Shown here: one piece after another, positions 3,004 through 60,811 of the stretch
How positions within the stretch are numbered: position 1 is the stretch's first letter
Layout of the letters: each line of letters begins with the position of its first letter
NCBI RefSeq assembly: GCF_000230715.2
Contig: NC_019792.1
Coordinates: 868,001-932,000 of the forward strand
DNA from: Natronobacterium gregoryi SP2
Lineage (GTDB): Archaea; Halobacteriota; Halobacteria; Halobacteriales; Natrialbaceae
Direction of reading: 5' to 3'
Length of the DNA: 64,000 bases
Translations under genes and position numbers: made by a program
The notes under the pieces: generated by a model
Seen by the model: the letters and a program-made list of their open reading frames with translations, nothing else
The model's database searches: none
What the model was told of the DNA's origin: nothing

Positions 3004-3150
3004 TTTCGCGTGGACTCCCGTTCTACGCCTCGGATGAGGCGGGAAGATCGTACTCTCCACTCACGTTCAGTGTCCCGCGATTCAAGCGCACGTCTACGGG
3101 TGCGCCTCCGTCGTCTGCGTTTTGCCGACGCCGGAGATACTGCAAGCCGA
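2948..3150 (-). ncRNA. Candidate TnpB guide RNA (omega RNA / sense overlapping transcript) at the element's right end
   Basis: In IS200/IS605 elements the transcript covering the 3' end of tnpB and the right end serves as the TnpB guide RNA, and such sense-overlapping RNAs are known for haloarchaeal tnpB genes. Here the tnpB stop at 3023 is followed by a strong hairpin at 2948-3003. The 5' limit is a guess and expression is not shown. The guide segment would be the genomic DNA just past the right end, toward lower coordinates. Confidence 0.3.
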
Positions 3151-4244
3151 TGTTCTTGGAAGCGTTGTAGTCGGCGTGGTTCTGGTAGCCACAATCCTGA
3201 CATTCGAAGTCTTCGCCGTGGCGGTTATCATCGTGGGTAAACCCACAGGTCGAACACCGTTTTGACGTGTTCCGTGGGTCCACTTGCACGACTTTGACGC
3301 CCTGCTCTCTGGCTTTGTATTCGACGTACTCGTAGAGGCGACGGAACGCCCACAGATGGTGCCACGATGCTTCTGGGACGTTCTCACGAATGTCGGTCAG
3401 GTCCTCGAACACGATATGCGAACAGTCGTGTTCGACTGCTTCTGCGACGATCTCGTTGGCAACACGATGCAGGAATATCTCGAAGCGTCCGTCCTCCTTG
3501 CGCTCGACGCCTGCTATCGCGTCGTGTGCCGCTCGCGTTCCGCACTGTTGGAGGTTGCCACGCCGTTTCTCGTACTCTCGCTTCCAGTGGTTGAACTCGT
3601 CTGCCGACCAGAACCGTCCGGTCGAAGCCACCGCGAGTTGGTTCACACCGAGGTCCACACCGAGGACGGTGCTGTGCCCGGTAGTGGGTTCGGTGTCGTC
3701 GTCCTCTTTGAGCATCGACGCATGGAGATACCAGTCGCCGTCACGCCGATGGAGTGTCGCCCGCCGAAACTCGTAGTCTTCGTCTGTGACGTACTTTGTC
3801 GGCGGTGTATCGGCATCGTCAGGTAGAATGTAGTCGCACTCAATCCGTCCGTCCGGTGTTGAGAGCGAAACGTGGTCACGATGGAACGTTGCGCTTCGCT
3901 TGTCGTAGACGGCAGTATCCGCCGTGAACGTCGGACGAGACGTATCTTGGTCGTTTTTGAGACGTTCGACGCCGCTTTTGACGGATTCGACGGCTTGGCG
4001 AATCCCCTTCTGGACAAGATTTGCGGTCAGCTCCGTGTCCTCACGTAGCTGGTCGTAGAGGGCGCGTTCGGCCTTCGCTTTCGAAGTGACGTGGTAGCCG
4101 TCATCGCCGTGCCAGCACCACTCACTCGCGGTGTTGGCGCAGTATTTGAATTGCTCGACAGTCTCTCGAAGGTGCGTATCTGCGCCTTCGGGTGTGTCGA
4201 GCTTGATAACGGCGGTACGACGGTATTCCGCTGTGTTTTCACAT
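3023..4244 (-). pseudogene. tnpB: TnpB (RuvC-like RNA-guided nuclease), start codon out of frame by one base
   Basis: About 405 codons are open, with all C-terminal signatures: RuvC-I G-V-D-L-G-V-N, RuvC-II F-E-D-L-T-D, a zinc ribbon C-S-T-C-G plus C-Q-D-C-G, and RuvC-III with D in H-A-D-Y-N-A-S-K-N. The N-terminal frame (A-E-Y-R-R-T-A-V-I-K-L) is also intact, but it contains no ATG, GTG or TTG before the internal Met at 3715. The only ATG (4244-4242) is followed at once by TGA. Dropping the single T after it gives M-E-N-T-A-E-Y-R-R, a normal TnpB start. So this is a one-base frameshift at the start, a non-canonical start, or a sequencing error. If only the 3715 start is used, the product lacks the N-terminal half. 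Confidence 0.8.
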
Positions 4245-20088: not shown

Positions 20089-20178
20089 TGATACGGATTG
20101 CTGTAACTGTTTACCGCCACTCACCAGAACGGGGTCGGCGCTCGGCGGTAAGTAACTACAGCAAACCGTATGAGTCAC
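20089..20178. repeat. Dispersed palindromic repeat, copy 1
   Basis: The left arm TGATACGGATTGCTGTAACT and its continuation GTTTACCGCC pair with GGCGGTAAGTAACTACAGCA followed by AACCGTATGAGTCA, around a GC-rich loop. It lies between tRNA-Ala and the convergent surface glycoprotein gene. The core differs from the GCTGTCC subtype. Confidence 0.75.
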
Positions 20179-20460: not shown

Positions 20461-23400
20461 TTAGTTCTGCCGGCGCAGCGCGAGCATAGCTGCAGCGAGC
20501 AGGGCAACGACGGCAACGGCAACACCGAAGCCGGGCGTCTCGTCGTCTACGGGTTCGTCTTCTGGGTCGTCTTCTGGGTCGTCTTCAGGCTCGTCTTTGG
20601 GCTCGTCTTCGGGCTCGTCAACAGGCTTCTTCTCGACGACGTTCAGGGTGCCACTGTCGGACTGGTCGCCGGCAGTGACGTCCCAGTCGATGTCAGCTTT
20701 CTCGGCAGTGTCGAAGTCGAAGCTCCCGCTCCACTCTTCGTCAGGCTCGAGCGTGACGCTTTCGTTCTTGACAGTCTCACCGTCGGTCGTGACGGTGACG
20801 GTGATGTCGTCGGCAGCACCGCCGTCGTTGCTGACGGTCACGTCGAGTGCAGCGTCGTCACCGACTTCGACTTCGCCGGGTGCGGTCGCGTGGAGGTTGA
20901 TCACTGCTTCGTCGGCGTCGACGAGGACGGCGTCGATACTGTCCTCGAGGTCGTAGTCGCTGTCGTAGCTACTTTCGTCTTCGTGGGAAGCACCGAGTTC
21001 GAACTCGATGCCGGGATCGTACTCGCTGAAGTCGTAGGTCGCAGCGAAGGTGCCGTCCGCTTCGACGATGGCGTCAGCGCTTTCGGTGAAATTCCCGCCC
21101 GAACGGGCGTTGGTGCGGATCTCACTACCGGGTGCGGTAGTGGTCGTTCCACTCACTTCAGCGTCCGCGGCGTTTGGCACCTCTTCAGCGGAGTGATACC
21201 ACTCGACGACTGGCTCGACGAGATCGAACTCGGTTTCAATCTCGATTTCGTCGTCTGCGTCGTCGACGTACGGGCTTTCCTCGGTGATCTCGTAGGTTAG
21301 GTCGTACCCACCCAGGTCGAATTCCTCGCCGATCTCGTCTTCGTCGTACTCGAGTTGGAGCACGAGGTCCCCGTCGTAGTGCTCGAGGTCGGTGTAGACA
21401 GCGCTGACGTTTATCTGTTCGATATCGTCGTCGTCACTTGCATCGGTTTCGTTGATCGTCCAGACCTGCGCACCGACGTTCGGACCGGGGTCCTGTTCGA
21501 CGACGGTGATGTCGATGTGCTCTTCAGCGAGGTGGTCGCTGACCTGGTCACCTCCGCTTGCATCGGCGACAACACCGGAGAGGCCGAAGTCCTCGAGCGT
21601 CACGAGGAGTGCGTCGCCATCAGCGACGTCCGACTGTTCGGTAACGGTCGTCTCGTTGAACGCATCGTAGTCGTCGAGACTCGAGTCGATCGGTGCGACC
21701 GCGGTGGTTACGTCGGAGACCGGCGATCGTTCGTTGACGGAGAAGAACTCCGTGTCGGTTTCGGGTTCGACAACGGGGGTCGCGTACGATGCGCTATCGA
21801 CGCTCTCGTCGTCGAAGCCGAGTCCGGCGAACATCGTGTAGTCGTGGTCGCCGAGTGCGCCGTCGATCTCCGTTGCGTTTGCGTACTGTTCTTCGAGGTC
21901 AATTTCGTCTTCGTAGTCGGGGTGGACACGCCACGACTCGCTTTCGTTGGGAGCGTTGGCGTTGAACTGGAGAACCGCCTCGTCGACGTTGTGGTCCTCC
22001 GCTTCGAACATTGCACTGGCCTGGAAGTACGTCTTGTCGTACTCGCTGATCTGGATATAGCCTTCTTCAGCGTGCGTGAGTTCGAGTTCGATGTCGATCA
22101 CGTCACCGATTTCACCGGAAGATTGCTCGGCGAAATCGACGGACGAGTCGTCGTCGACGACGTCGATCGTGGCGTTGTCCCACGCGAACGAGTCAGTGAT
22201 TTCGAACTCGAATTCGTACTCGTCGGCGTCGAAGTCCTCGAATTCGATGTCGAAGTCATCCTCGCTCTCGACGTCTATGAGCGTCAGGATGTCGTCATCG
22301 GTGTCGACTTCAGTCTCTTCGTAGTCGATGTACTCCTCGAGGTCTTCAGCGTCGACATCCTCGCTGATAACGTCGACGTGCTGGTAGTCACGCTCGCTAT
22401 CGATATCGAGGGTGGCAGACTCGTCCTGTGGGATAGTGTTGACGTTGAATTCGGCACTAAGCTCTTCTTCAGCGGTCCAGAATTCTTTCTCGTCGAAGTG
22501 CGACTCATTAGCGCTGAAGTGATATCCTTCGCCAGTCTCGAGGTCTGACGTGTCGAATTCAGCGGTCCCGTCGGTAGCTTCCACCGACGTCACGAGTTCA
22601 GGATTGTCGAGTTCAACGGGTCCTTTGTAGAGAATGACGGAAGACACGCTGTCCCCGAATTCATCGTCCTTGAGTGTGAGTTCTTGTCCGATGTAGACGT
22701 TCTCGACGTCATTGCCGCTGGACCACGTTGGGCCACCGGCATCTGGGCCGTGCCCGACATCGGTCGGTTCGAAGACTTCGATCTCACCGTTGTAGGTGTC
22801 TGCTTGCTCCTCATCGACGGTAGCCGTGATGTTTAGGTCGTAGCTACCTTCTTCGACAGAGTCGAAGGAGACATTCTCGGTCTTGGTTTCGTTTCCGCCG
22901 ACCATCTCGAATTCGAGGGTCTCATTGCTGTCACCGAACTCAACATCGGCCTCAACCCCGGTAATCTCCTCATCGCCCGTGTTCTCGAGGGTCACGTCGA
23001 TGTCGACTTCATCGCCAGCTGCGACCTCGTCGTCGTACTCTGCGCTCTCAATTTCGATATAGTCTTCTGGGTCCTCGATCTGTTCGGAGACTTCGATCTC
23101 ACCGTTGTAGGTGTCTGCTTGCTCCTCATCGACGGTAGCCGTGATGTCTAGGTCGTAGCTACCTTCTTCGACAGAGTCGAAGGAGACACTCCCGGTCTTG
23201 TTTTCGTCTCCGCCGACCGTCTCGAAGTCGATGGTCTCATTGCTGTCACCGAACTCAACATCGGCCTCGACCTCGGAAATCTCCTCATCGCCCGTGTTCT
23301 CGAGGGTCACGTCGATGTCGACTTCATCGCCAGCTACGACCTCGTCGTCGTACTCTGCGCTCTCAATTTCGATGTCCGATTCTCCGGGATCGTCTGCCAC

Positions 23401-24368: not shown

Positions 24369-24456
24369 TGATAGGGTTTGTTGTCAGTCAGTTCCGGCGC
24401 GACCGCGAGTTTTCCTGTGGTTGCGCCGGGACATCGGGACAGCAGTCCGCATGAGA
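24369..24456. repeat. Dispersed palindromic repeat, copy 2
   Basis: TGATAGGGTTTGTTGTCAGT and CCGGCGCGACCGC form the left arm; GTGGTTGCGCCGGGACA and GGGACAGCAGTCCGCATGAG form the right arm. It lies about 110 bp upstream of the HalOD1 gene start. Confidence 0.72.
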
Positions 24457-33163: not shown

Positions 33164-33790
33164 ACTCGCTCGGTATCAACTTGACGCCTCGCTTTCGTCG
33201 TCATGTAGCTGCGTGGCACTCGGAATGGGCGTTTACCCGTTTGTACGAGTCCCCTCGAGTCCAAGGCCGAAGCAGAAGGATTGGTCGTAGATACGACGAC
33301 CCCGAAAACACAGTCAAGCGATGTGTTTCGTGTGGGTTCATCCACGAGGACAATCGACCGTCACGCGAGCTGTTTGCGTGCCAGAAGTGCACGACTCATA
33401 CGGATTACTGTACCGATTTACCGGCGCAACCGCCGCCCGGGTCGCGGTTGTGCCGGAAATGACCTACAGTAAACCGTATCAGACGGTTTGCTGTCCGTCA
33501 GTGCCGGGTGGCCTGCGAGCCCGCCTGCGGTCGCGCCAGGACAGCGGGACAGCAGTCCGTCTCAGAACTCACGCCGATGACAACGCTGCCAAGAACGTGG
33601 CAGATGTGTCTCTCCGACGCGAGCAGCACTCCTCACGTGGGAGAGGCGCCAGCCAATACGCCCCGAGGCAAGAGACAGTGACACCGAATCGGGAAGACAC
33701 CCCGTACTCTGCCGAGCAGAGGTCGAGTCCGCGGACAAGTCCTATTTGCGAACGGGGTAGCCCGTTTGCATGGGCCGTGGGACCGACAGT
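33164..33790 (+). pseudogene. tnpB: Decayed tnpB interrupted by a palindromic repeat pair
   Basis: The plus strand encodes a broken TnpB C-terminus. A-A-W-H-S-E-W-A-F-T-R-L-Y-E matches the helix before the zinc ribbon, followed by a frameshift. The ribbon then reads D-P-E-N-T-V-K-R-C-V-S-C-G-F up to C-Q-K-C at about 33390. The RuvC-III part continues only after 33566 as H-A-D-D-N-A-A-K-N-V-A, then a C-terminal tail. Removing the 168-bp palindrome pair and one ACTCA copy restores C-Q-K-C-T-T-H-A-D-D-N-A-A-K. The N-terminal RuvC-I and II parts are missing and at least two frameshifts exist. The region after 33700 probably holds the old right end of the element. Confidence 0.78.
33399..33566. 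mobile_element. Tandem pair of palindromic repeats inserted in tnpB with 5-bp target duplication (copies 3 and 4)
   Basis: Two units of about 84 bp lie head to tail: 33399-33482, with ends TACGGATTACTGT and ACAGTAAACCGTATC, and 33483-33566, with ends ACGGTTTGCTGTCC and GGGACAGCAGTCCGTCTC. Direct ACTCA copies flank the pair at 33394-33398 and 33567-33571. Its removal rejoins the tnpB frame, which shows that the pair arrived as one insertion. Confidence 0.75.
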
Positions 33791-38862: not shown

Positions 38863-38943
38863 TATGAGACGGGTTGCTGTCCGTCAGTCCCGGTGCAACC
38901 ACGCCCCAGGTTACACCGAGGCATCCGAAGCAATCCGTATCAG
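38863..38943. repeat. Dispersed palindromic repeat, copy 5
   Basis: TATGAGACGGGTTGCTGTCC with GTCAGTCCCGG on the left; GAAGCAATCCGTATCAG on the right. The inner arms are more degenerate than in other copies. It touches the IS630 end on one side, and its TGATACGG end (minus strand) supplies the stop codon of the next gene. Confidence 0.68.
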
Positions 38944-39728: not shown

Positions 39729-39811
39729 AGCATACGGACTGCTGTCCCGGCGCGACCGCAGGCGGGCGTGCGGGCCCGCCGGAACTGACATCCAGCAAAC
39801 CGTATCACTCA
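39729..39811. repeat. Dispersed palindromic repeat, copy 6
   Basis: The left arm is CATACGGACTGCTGTCCCGG then CGCGACCGC; the right arm is GGGCCCGCCGGAACTG then CCAGCAAACCGTATCA. It lies downstream of the SPFH gene and upstream of the HTH regulator start. About 150 bp on its left and 95 bp on its right hold no gene. Confidence 0.72.
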
Positions 39812-43802: not shown

Positions 43803-43888
43803 TCAGGCGGACTGCTGTCCCGATGTCCCGGCGCGACCGCAAGAGCGCGCGGGCGCGCCGGCACTAGACGGCAGCAAACCGTATCAGT
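43803..43888. repeat. Dispersed palindromic repeat, copy 7
   Basis: The left arm GGCGGACTGCTGTCCCGATG and CCGGCGCGACCGC pairs with GGGCGCGCCGGCACT and GGCAGCAAACCGTATCAG. It lies between the stops of two convergent genes and supplies the TGA of the minus-strand one. Confidence 0.75.
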
Positions 43889-45209
43889 CGCTTCCGGTAT
43901 CCGAAGCCGTGTCGGAGACGATCGAGCGATCGGGGAGGTTCGACGACGGTTCTCGGCCCAGCGTGAGCAGACGTTCGGTACGGGTGACTTCTATCGGACT
44001 CGGATTCGACTTTTCGATTTCCTCGTACTCGACCGTAACGCCTGCTGTCTCGGCGCTGATCCTGACGGCACAAAGCTGATACGAGGGGTAAAACACTGGC
44101 GGAAGAACGCCGACGGCGACGTCTCGGCGGTGGAGTCGCTTCAACCACGTTCCGGTGTTGACGAGCAATCGGCCGTCGACATCGATCACCTTCGGTCGGT
44201 GAGTATGCCCGTAGCAGAATATCGCCGTCTCCGGCTGGGCAGCAAACACCTCGCGTGCAGCCTCTTTGTAGGGTTCGTCCGGATCGACGGTGAGGTCGGT
44301 TTCGAAGATGCCGAACCGGTCGACAGTCTGTCTGAAGTCACGGAGGACGAAGTAGACGGGAATCCCAACGAGAAGGAGGATGCCAGCGACCGCTGCGTTG
44401 ACGACGAGGAGCAGATGGACGGTCTCACCGACGTAACCCAACTGGTCGAGAACTGCATCTGCCATTTCGACCGGCATCGCCCAGACGCCGGCAACGTCCA
44501 GACCTGCCAGCACTGCGAGGACGACACTGACGTTGAGAAGGAGCAAGAACGGGAGCACGGCGTACCGCAAGAGCGGGTTCATTTCGCGGTAGAAGTACTT
44601 CGAAAGGAGCCAGCGTGGCACTCGTTCGGTCGGGGTAACCGCCTGGACGTCTTTCAACCAGTTGTACCGCCCCCGTTCGGAGAGCCGGCCTGCTCGACTC
44701 GTCACGAGGGCGTTGTAGTAGTAGCCAAGCGGCGTCTCGTGTCGGTTCCCGACATCCTCGAAGCGGTTGTTTGGATCTTGCTGGTGGCCGTGTTCGAAGT
44801 GGATCGTCCGGTCGCCGACCGGACGCGTGACCGACTCCGCCTGGACGAGGTCGACGTTGTACTCGGCCAGTCGGTCGACGTACTCGTCGTACGCGGCGAG
44901 ATCGTGGTCGTGATTCCCCGGCAACATCGTGACCGGGATCGACGCACCGGTCGCACGCAACTGCTCGAACAACCCGGAATAGCGGTCGGTCAGAACGTCG
45001 AACTTCGCCAGCCCGTCGATCTCGGTGATCTCCCACAGACCGAACGCGTCACCGTTGATGAGGAGTTCTACGTCTTCGTCGGTCGTCTCCAGTCGCTCGA
45101 GAAACGCGATCAACTCCTCGAGGAAGTCGACTTCCCCCAGTTGCTCGTCGCCGCCGATGTGGAGGTCGCTGATGACGTAGTAGACCCGCCCGTCGGCATC
45201 GTCAGCCAT
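43884..45209 (-). CDS. Membrane-embedded metallophosphoesterase
   Basis: A 441-aa calcineurin-type phosphoesterase. Metal-binding motifs are S-D-L-H-I-G (14-19), N-G-D-A-F-G (52-57), G-N-H-D-H-D (98-103), H-G-H-Q (140-143) and, much later, G-H-T-H-R-P (334-339). Two hydrophobic helices (about 216-246 and 263-290) are inserted between the fourth and fifth motifs, anchoring the catalytic domain to the membrane. The fold resembles UDP-diacylglucosamine hydrolases, but haloarchaea lack lipid A, so the substrate is unknown. The stop codon lies in the end of palindrome copy 7. Confidence 0.82.
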   Translation of the reverse strand: MADDADGRVYYVISDLHIGGDEQLGEVDFLEELIAFLERLETTDEDVELLINGDAFGLWEITEIDGLAKFDVLTDRYSGLFEQLRATGASIPVTMLPGNHDHDLAAYDEYVDRLAEYNVDLVQAESVTRPVGDRTIHFEHGHQQDPNNRFEDVGNRHETPLGYYYNALVTSRAGRLSERGRYNWLKDVQAVTPTERVPRWLLSKYFYREMNPLLRYAVLPFLLLLNVSVVLAVLAGLDVAGVWAMPVEMADAVLDQLGYVGETVHLLLVVNAAVAGILLLVGIPVYFVLRDFRQTVDRFGIFETDLTVDPDEPYKEAAREVFAAQPETAIFCYGHTHRPKVIDVDGRLLVNTGTWLKRLHRRDVAVGVLPPVFYPSYQLCAVRISAETAGVTVEYEEIEKSNPSPIEVTRTERLLTLGREPSSNLPDRSIVSDTASDTGSD

Positions 45210-49383: not shown

Positions 49384-49914
49384 ACGTCCCACTCGGAAAC
49401 TGCGAGAAATAACGGTTCGGCTAGCGGAAGGTAGCTGCCTCGTCGAGAACGTATCCACGTCGACGTGAAATGGCGCGCTGTCGGCCGACCGAGTGAAACG
49501 AGGGCGGTCGACAGCGCGCGAGCTCTTCACGAGCGCAGCGAGTGAAGGCGTGTCATACGGTTTGCTGTCCGTCAGTGCCAGCGCGCCCGCGAGCACGCCT
49601 GCGGTCGCGCTGGGACATCGGGACAGCAGTCCGTCTCATACGGTTTACTGTAAGTCATTTTCGGCACAACCGCGACCCTGGCGGCGGTTGCGCCGGTAAA
49701 TCGGTACAGTAATCCGTCTCAGAGTTTGCTCTGACAGTGGTTGAGTGAGGACGAAGTGACCGAACGAATCGGTTGGGGTTCTGTCGAATCGATTCCTCGA
49801 GAACGAACGTCTACAGGCGGAGCAGGCCGAGTGGCTCGGGGACGTTCGGAAGATCTCTGCGCTTCCGTGATGACGAGAGACGAAGTCTCTCGAACCACTT
49901 GACCCCGAGGCGGT
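49384..49914. other. Intergenic region holding the second palindrome pair
   Basis: About 530 bp without a supported gene. Besides the pair at 49553-49722, a short inverted repeat with GTCGACAGCGCGCG and CGCGCTGTCGGC lies around 49476-49518. The rest shows no coding pattern. Confidence 0.45.
49553..49722. repeat. Tandem pair of dispersed palindromic repeats, copies 8 and 9
   Basis: Unit one (49553-49637) has TCATACGGTTTGCTGTCC and GGACAGCAGTCCGTC. Unit two (49635-49722) has TCATACGGTTTACTGTAAGT and GGTACAGTAATCCGTCTCA. The second unit is nearly identical to the reverse complement of 33399-33482. The arms of unit one pair as CCAGCGCG with CGCGCTGG, where other copies have CCGGCGCG with CGCGCCGG. 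Confidence 0.75.
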
Positions 49915-60432: not shown

Positions 60433-60811
60433 TACTCCACCAAGCGTCGACTGCTGAGTGAACCCAGACGACTGCATTCGGTTTCACTCATCCGTTCAGG
60501 CTTGCCAAAGCACTAGTAGCGTCCCAAGTCTACTCTGGCTAGTGCACTCTACTCCTGATCGAAAATCGTGATCGGTTTGGACCAACTCTCAACTAGTCGG
60601 TCCACGGTTGGGATGGTACTAGTAGTGTCCCAAGTCTACTCTGACTAGTGCGCTCTACTCCTGATCAAGAATCGTGATCGGTTTGGGCCAACTCTCAACT
60701 AGTCGGTCTACGCTTGGGACGGTACTAGACGTCCGGTGGGACCGTCCCGAGGTGCGCCCGGTCGCCGCCAGCGGTAGTTATTTATCACCGATCGTGGACG
60801 ATCCGGCTATC
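60433..60811. other. Noncoding region carrying the 106-bp repeat pair
   Basis: About 380 bp with no supported gene. It contains the tandem palindromic repeat at 60512-60728 and, near 60777-60785, AGTTATTTATC, a TATA candidate about 25 nt before the ATG at 60812. Confidence 0.5.
60512..60728. repeat. Tandem 106-bp palindromic repeat, two copies, CTAG-rich
   Basis: Copies at 60512-60617 and 60618-60723 differ at about ten positions; ACTAG of a third unit follows. Within each, GTCCCAAGTCTACTCTGACT near the left end is inverted as ACTAGTCGGTCTACGCTTGG near the right, forming a hairpin with arms of about 23 bp; a smaller GATC...GATC segment is in the middle. Seven CTAG tetramers occur in 217 bp, although CTAG is normally rare in haloarchaeal DNA. 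It is unrelated to the other palindrome family. Confidence 0.85.

Follow-up and report, generated by a model that had tools for sequence, protein, structure and literature searches.

The SMR-A repeat of Haloquadratum walsbyi is an element of about 110 bp with prominent inverted terminal repeats that is present in many copies. Its insertions frequently lie within other mobile elements and within PATE/IS605 palindromes, its repeats are unrelated to those of known transposons, and its mobilisation has been called enigmatic, with no target duplication reported and no transposase gene (PMC3119063). In the REP/REPIN systems with a RAYT (TnpA-REP) transposase, hundreds of hairpins carrying a short motif at their foot are dispersed between genes and also form tandem clusters, and the tagged families in the surveys of these repeats have been described from bacteria (PMC2817692, PMC3116915, PMC6006769). 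IS200/IS605 elements are flanked on the left by a target motif and finish on the right with a motif equivalent to it (PMC6006769).

The palindromes that we describe here from Natronobacterium gregoryi resemble SMR-A in their inverted terminal repeats, their many copies, their want of a transposase gene and their nesting in palindromes, but they occur in another haloarchaeal lineage, measure 83 bp, can number several hundred in one genome and have a defined TCA target; the likeness is one of description. With the REP/REPIN repeats they share a high copy number, palindromes dispersed between genes and also clustered in tandem, stem mismatches that are conserved, and a motif at the foot of the hairpin, although the foot tag of the REP repeats is GTAG (or CGTC) and that of the 83-bp unit is TCA/TGA, and although the Y1 gene flanked by repeats of the REP/REPIN-RAYT systems was not found here. 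Similar to IS200/IS605 and the haloarchaeal PATEs, the units lie 3' of a short fixed target, form hairpins and have a similar 3' end of their own (PMC3119063, PMC6006769). Those elements insert without a duplication, and here the same is favoured by an asymmetry between the two borders that is weakly above its control. In contrast to IS200/IS605, the whole element is a single hairpin with no linked tnpA or tnpB, and the motif has three bases instead of four to six. The border arrangement appears to work like that of IS200/IS605, and the units are no more than candidate members of this class.

The stretch that was analysed (the window) comprises 64,000 nucleotides, positions 868001-932000 of the closed contig of 3,788,356 bp in this 3.79-Mb genome (G000 in the coordinates below). 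It carries the C-terminal third of a tnpB gene (33208-33764), which intact TnpB homologues match by tblastn at 33208-33408 and 33564-33764, and which has an earlier frame break upstream of the palindromes (Table 1). The motif ACTCA is found at 33394-33398 and again at 33567-33571, and the 168 bases in between consist of two 83-bp palindromes followed by GA. Compared with chance, the folding of the palindromes gives z = -5.35 for unit 1 and z = -2.12 for unit 2. Further tnpB matches, with equal scores and an open frame, are present at window positions 3029-3262 and at G000 3761071-3761304, and this copy has possibly moved recently. Two other repeats were observed in the window: a pair of 299-bp direct repeats, near-tandem and 95% identical (22760-23373), and two adjoining 106-bp repeats that are 84% identical (60486-60697).

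Table 1. Features of the interrupted tnpB remnant and other palindrome copies in the window (window coordinates).
Feature	Position	Strand	Basis
5' part of decayed tnpB C-terminal remnant, zinc-ribbon region	33208..33398	+	tblastn with intact TnpB, E ~1e-18
Target TCA, native to tnpB, within left ACTCA	33396..33398	+	opposite AATCA in the alignment with L071/L072, which are uninterrupted
Palindromic unit 1, 83 bp, ends ...CCGTATCA, young subfamily of at least 93% identity	33399..33481	+	
Palindromic unit 2, 83 bp, ends ...CCGTCTCA, diverged family member, tandem with unit 1	33482..33564	+	
3' part of tnpB remnant, HADDNAAKNVADVSLRREQ...	33565..33764	+	tblastn with TnpB
GAACTCA, native tnpB: QN codons plus one extra base; holds right ACTCA	33565..33571	+	homologues: CAGAA(C/T)CACGC
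Palindrome copy, TGA-bounded	20089..20173	.	profile match, G000 888089-888173
Palindrome copy, TGA-bounded	24369..24454	.	profile match, G000 892369-892454
Palindrome copy, diverged	38865..38942	.	profile match, G000 906865-906942
Palindrome copy	39731..39807	.	profile match, G000 907731-907807
Palindrome copy, TCA-bounded	43803..43889	.	
Second tandem palindrome pair in window	49554..49721	.	

An earlier note on this DNA had taken the pair for a single mobile element made of two units, which duplicates five bases, ACTCA, of its target. The letters are as it gave them, since ACTCA stands on both sides and a deletion of 173 bases joins CQKCTTH to ADDNAAKNVA in a single open frame, and a similar order is found in several other pairs. 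The empty site that the note had proposed to look for in relatives exists, with uninterrupted tnpB homologues present in many of them, and these homologues point to a different excision. At the insertion site the nearest of them read GGGAATCAGAA(C/T)CACGC, for instance TGCGGGAATCAGAACCACGC in L071 and GGGAATCAGAATCACGCC in L072. When exactly 166 bp (2 x 83, 33399-33564) are removed from the window, the remaining sequence, TGCACGACTCAGAACTCACGC, equals the homologues across the junction (TCAGAA; ACGACTCAGAACTCACGC in the comparison with L071 and L072), with one extra base downstream. The equivalent of ACTCA in the homologues is native gene sequence (AATCAGAATCA), and each of the two places, which lie 7 bp from one another, has a natural TCA motif in them; because they have their own second TCA motif there, the ACTCA on the right is not a duplicate. 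The 166-bp excision scores above the 173-bp excision in 22 of the 28 homologues, including all of the nearest ones, and with 173 bp removed the gene falls short of its close homologues by 6 bp (two codons). The restored frame, which the note had counted as evidence, carries little weight, because tnpB was already frameshifted upstream. Around isolated copies (n = 50), the 5-mer equivalent to ACTCA (NNTCA) recurs on the right in a single case, and no other direct repeat of at least 5 bp is common. These observations led us to reject the 5-bp duplication and, together with the single units at exact empty sites described below, make a two-unit element moving as one piece highly improbable.

Single palindrome units are mobile, so that the note's more general claim, that palindromes had moved into the tnpB remnant, stands. 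At one site (L038, G000 468457-469343) a young copy interrupts a transposase gene that is IS630-like as judged by eye, and the uninterrupted counterpart in a congener (G004, L127), with 96% identity over 403 columns, carries just one TGA in place of the TGA-unit-TGA of the window's genome. A second copy (L098, G000 706628) splits an oxidoreductase-like gene, of which the congeners G003 and G004 have intact versions; removing one 79-bp unit and keeping one triplet, as the TCA rule demands, reopens the frame and gives a gap-free alignment to G003 over 252 columns. The sites L034/L128 and L025/L129 are also empty in congeners, with less precise flanks, and several copies are nested inside other copies as a unit plus TCA. 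A comparison of open reading frame length after exact and shifted excision of 72 copies, nearly all of them intergenic, gave no signal. Mobility of two units together was rejected, given that the exact empty sites hold single units. Since all empty sites and nested insertions involve single units, two separate single-unit insertions are the best reading of the tandem pair in tnpB. Unit 2 has diverged, whereas unit 1 is a member of a young subfamily, so the older unit 2 was probably inserted first. We put at roughly 0.6 the probability that a small, non-autonomous mobile hairpin of about 83 bp, which inserts beside TCA without a target duplication, entered the tnpB remnant on two occasions, each time as a single copy.

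The end motif ACAGYAAWCCGTMTSA occurs 381 + 389 times (770) in the genome, against 1 + 0 for a reversed control pattern, from which we estimate about 385 palindromes in N. gregoryi. A profile search found 149 copies in a contiguous sample of 864 kb and 239 copies in 1.28 Mb, the larger sample including loci that were picked because they hold copies. Of 61 sampled genomes, 25 gave a match to the family; these 25 are all Natrialbaceae, in which the repeat is widespread, and the sampled genomes from other families of the order gave none. Every host of the repeat that has a name likewise belongs to the Natrialbaceae. Across 125 genomes of this family the counts range from background to about 400 palindromes; within the genus, four congeners carry about 53-70 each and N. 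gregoryi about 385, a spread of about 6-fold. The stem contains conserved mismatches. Neither Rfam nor the phage records gave a match to the palindrome, and the literature that we searched held no description of the family. Two viral contigs of IMG/VR (L306 and L307) each show one exact match to the conserved arm of the repeat.

Only 7 of 180 copies lie inside called genes, although 77% of the sequence is called coding by the simple, purpose-written gene caller on which this count rests, and the palindromes are slightly enriched between convergent genes (62, with about 47 expected). Such a distribution would also suit ordinary non-mobile structures formed in place, for example terminators. The exact empty sites, the nesting and the roughly 6-fold differences in copy number within one genus contradict this explanation and leave it with very little probability; the palindromes may still have a secondary function as terminators.

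The single units are inserted exactly 3' of TCA (TGA on the other strand), with one TCA per border, and their ends read TCA|KACGG...CCGTM-TCA|. Among 78 full copies of the contiguous sample, 33 are of the form TCA..TCA and 39 of the form TGA..TGA, and no longer duplication is evident. When copies are oriented by TCA, 38 of them deviate only in the upstream triplet and 9 only in the downstream triplet (p = 2.5e-5), and pooling with the named relatives gives 57:18. In a neighbouring control motif, the ACGG foot, there is a weak excess on the upstream side as well (37:25), and the difference between triplet and control reaches only p = 0.044. At least one deviation, the CCA at G000 706628, is probably a later mutation, as judged from its closest relative, which has TCA at this position. 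Two separate sets of copies gave the same consensus for the preferred target, CGWCTCA^GTC, which is similar to CGTMTCA, the 3' end of the element itself; undetected remnants of older adjoining copies could contribute to this consensus. In tandem pairs one TCA is common to both units at the junction. Two copies at unrelated sites (G000 1275448 and 1397726) have the same unusual 3' end, CCGTACCA, and TCA as the upstream triplet, and this common end fits a 3' triplet that travels with the element. No clear strand bias of the copies along the chromosome, of the sort that the lagging-strand preference of IS200/IS605 elements might leave, was observed, the replication origins not having been placed.

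MITEs of DDE transposons can be flanked by 3-bp duplications, as with the TNA target of the IS1031 type. The palindromes share with them a short length and inverted repeats, which are long and terminal here, and three identical bases at both borders, found in 72 of the 78 copies, and they could therefore be the MITEs of an unidentified DDE transposon with a TSA target that duplicates three bases upon insertion. The nearly random orientation of the loop relative to TCA and the partly symmetric outer flanks agree with such an origin as well. If the target triplet were copied, however, we would expect occasional matched triplets of other sequence and equal mutation on both sides, and neither is seen: the triplet is TCA/TGA only, the deviations fall mostly on one side, and none of the 324 oriented copies has a matched non-TCA pair. 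A parent transposon, or a full-length element with matching ends as proposed in the earlier note, did not turn up either, and no larger element with the palindrome's ends, including one carrying tnpA, was found in 1.28 Mb (about one third of the genome). Because the upstream triplet varies more and matched non-TCA pairs are absent, the evidence favours insertion beside TCA without a duplication over a transposon that duplicates 3 bp, and we consider the latter rather unlikely.

No mobilising enzyme was found for these hairpins. The N. gregoryi genome contains Y1_Tnp only as fragments, none of them near palindrome copies, and of 25 Y1 loci in relatives not one has palindromes on both flanks. 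Several high-copy genomes, among them G133 (642 end motifs) and G136 (409), have no reported Y1 match; of the genomes that reach 100 end motifs or more, six have none reported. The number of Y1 copies correlates with that of the repeats (rho 0.40), which may reflect the general load of mobile elements. A search for the IS91-type Y2 transposase (PF04986) gave no match in 8 genomes, and the control genomes gave none either. A REP/RAYT system was considered and rejected, with no RAYT-like locus found.

For the preferred reading, two single-unit insertions beside TCA, the upstream TCA would be the target, there before the insertion, while the downstream TCA would form the 3' end of the element itself. 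A trans-acting enzyme with cleavage 3' of TCA would excise the unit and reinsert it as a folded single strand, much as the TnpA of IS200/IS605 or the REP-associated transposases do. In tnpB, the older unit 2 would have been inserted first and the young unit 1 later, at the upstream TCA. A further suggestion, which we hold to be rather doubtful, is that the Natrialbaceae harbour a separate kind of transposition, in which a single 83-nt hairpin moves between TCA sites, with no duplication of the target, by means of an enzyme not recognisable as Y1 and has been active recently; the recent activity is suggested because copy number differs about 6-fold within one genus.

For genes cut by these units, comparison with relatives should be made after removing one unit and one TCA, and not a 5-bp duplication. 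The palindromes represent an archaeal counterpart of the REP-type repeats, with hundreds of copies and a clear rule, insertion 3' of TCA. The very different loads in close relatives mean that the mover of the small, transposase-free repeats of haloarchaea can be tested for by genome comparison.
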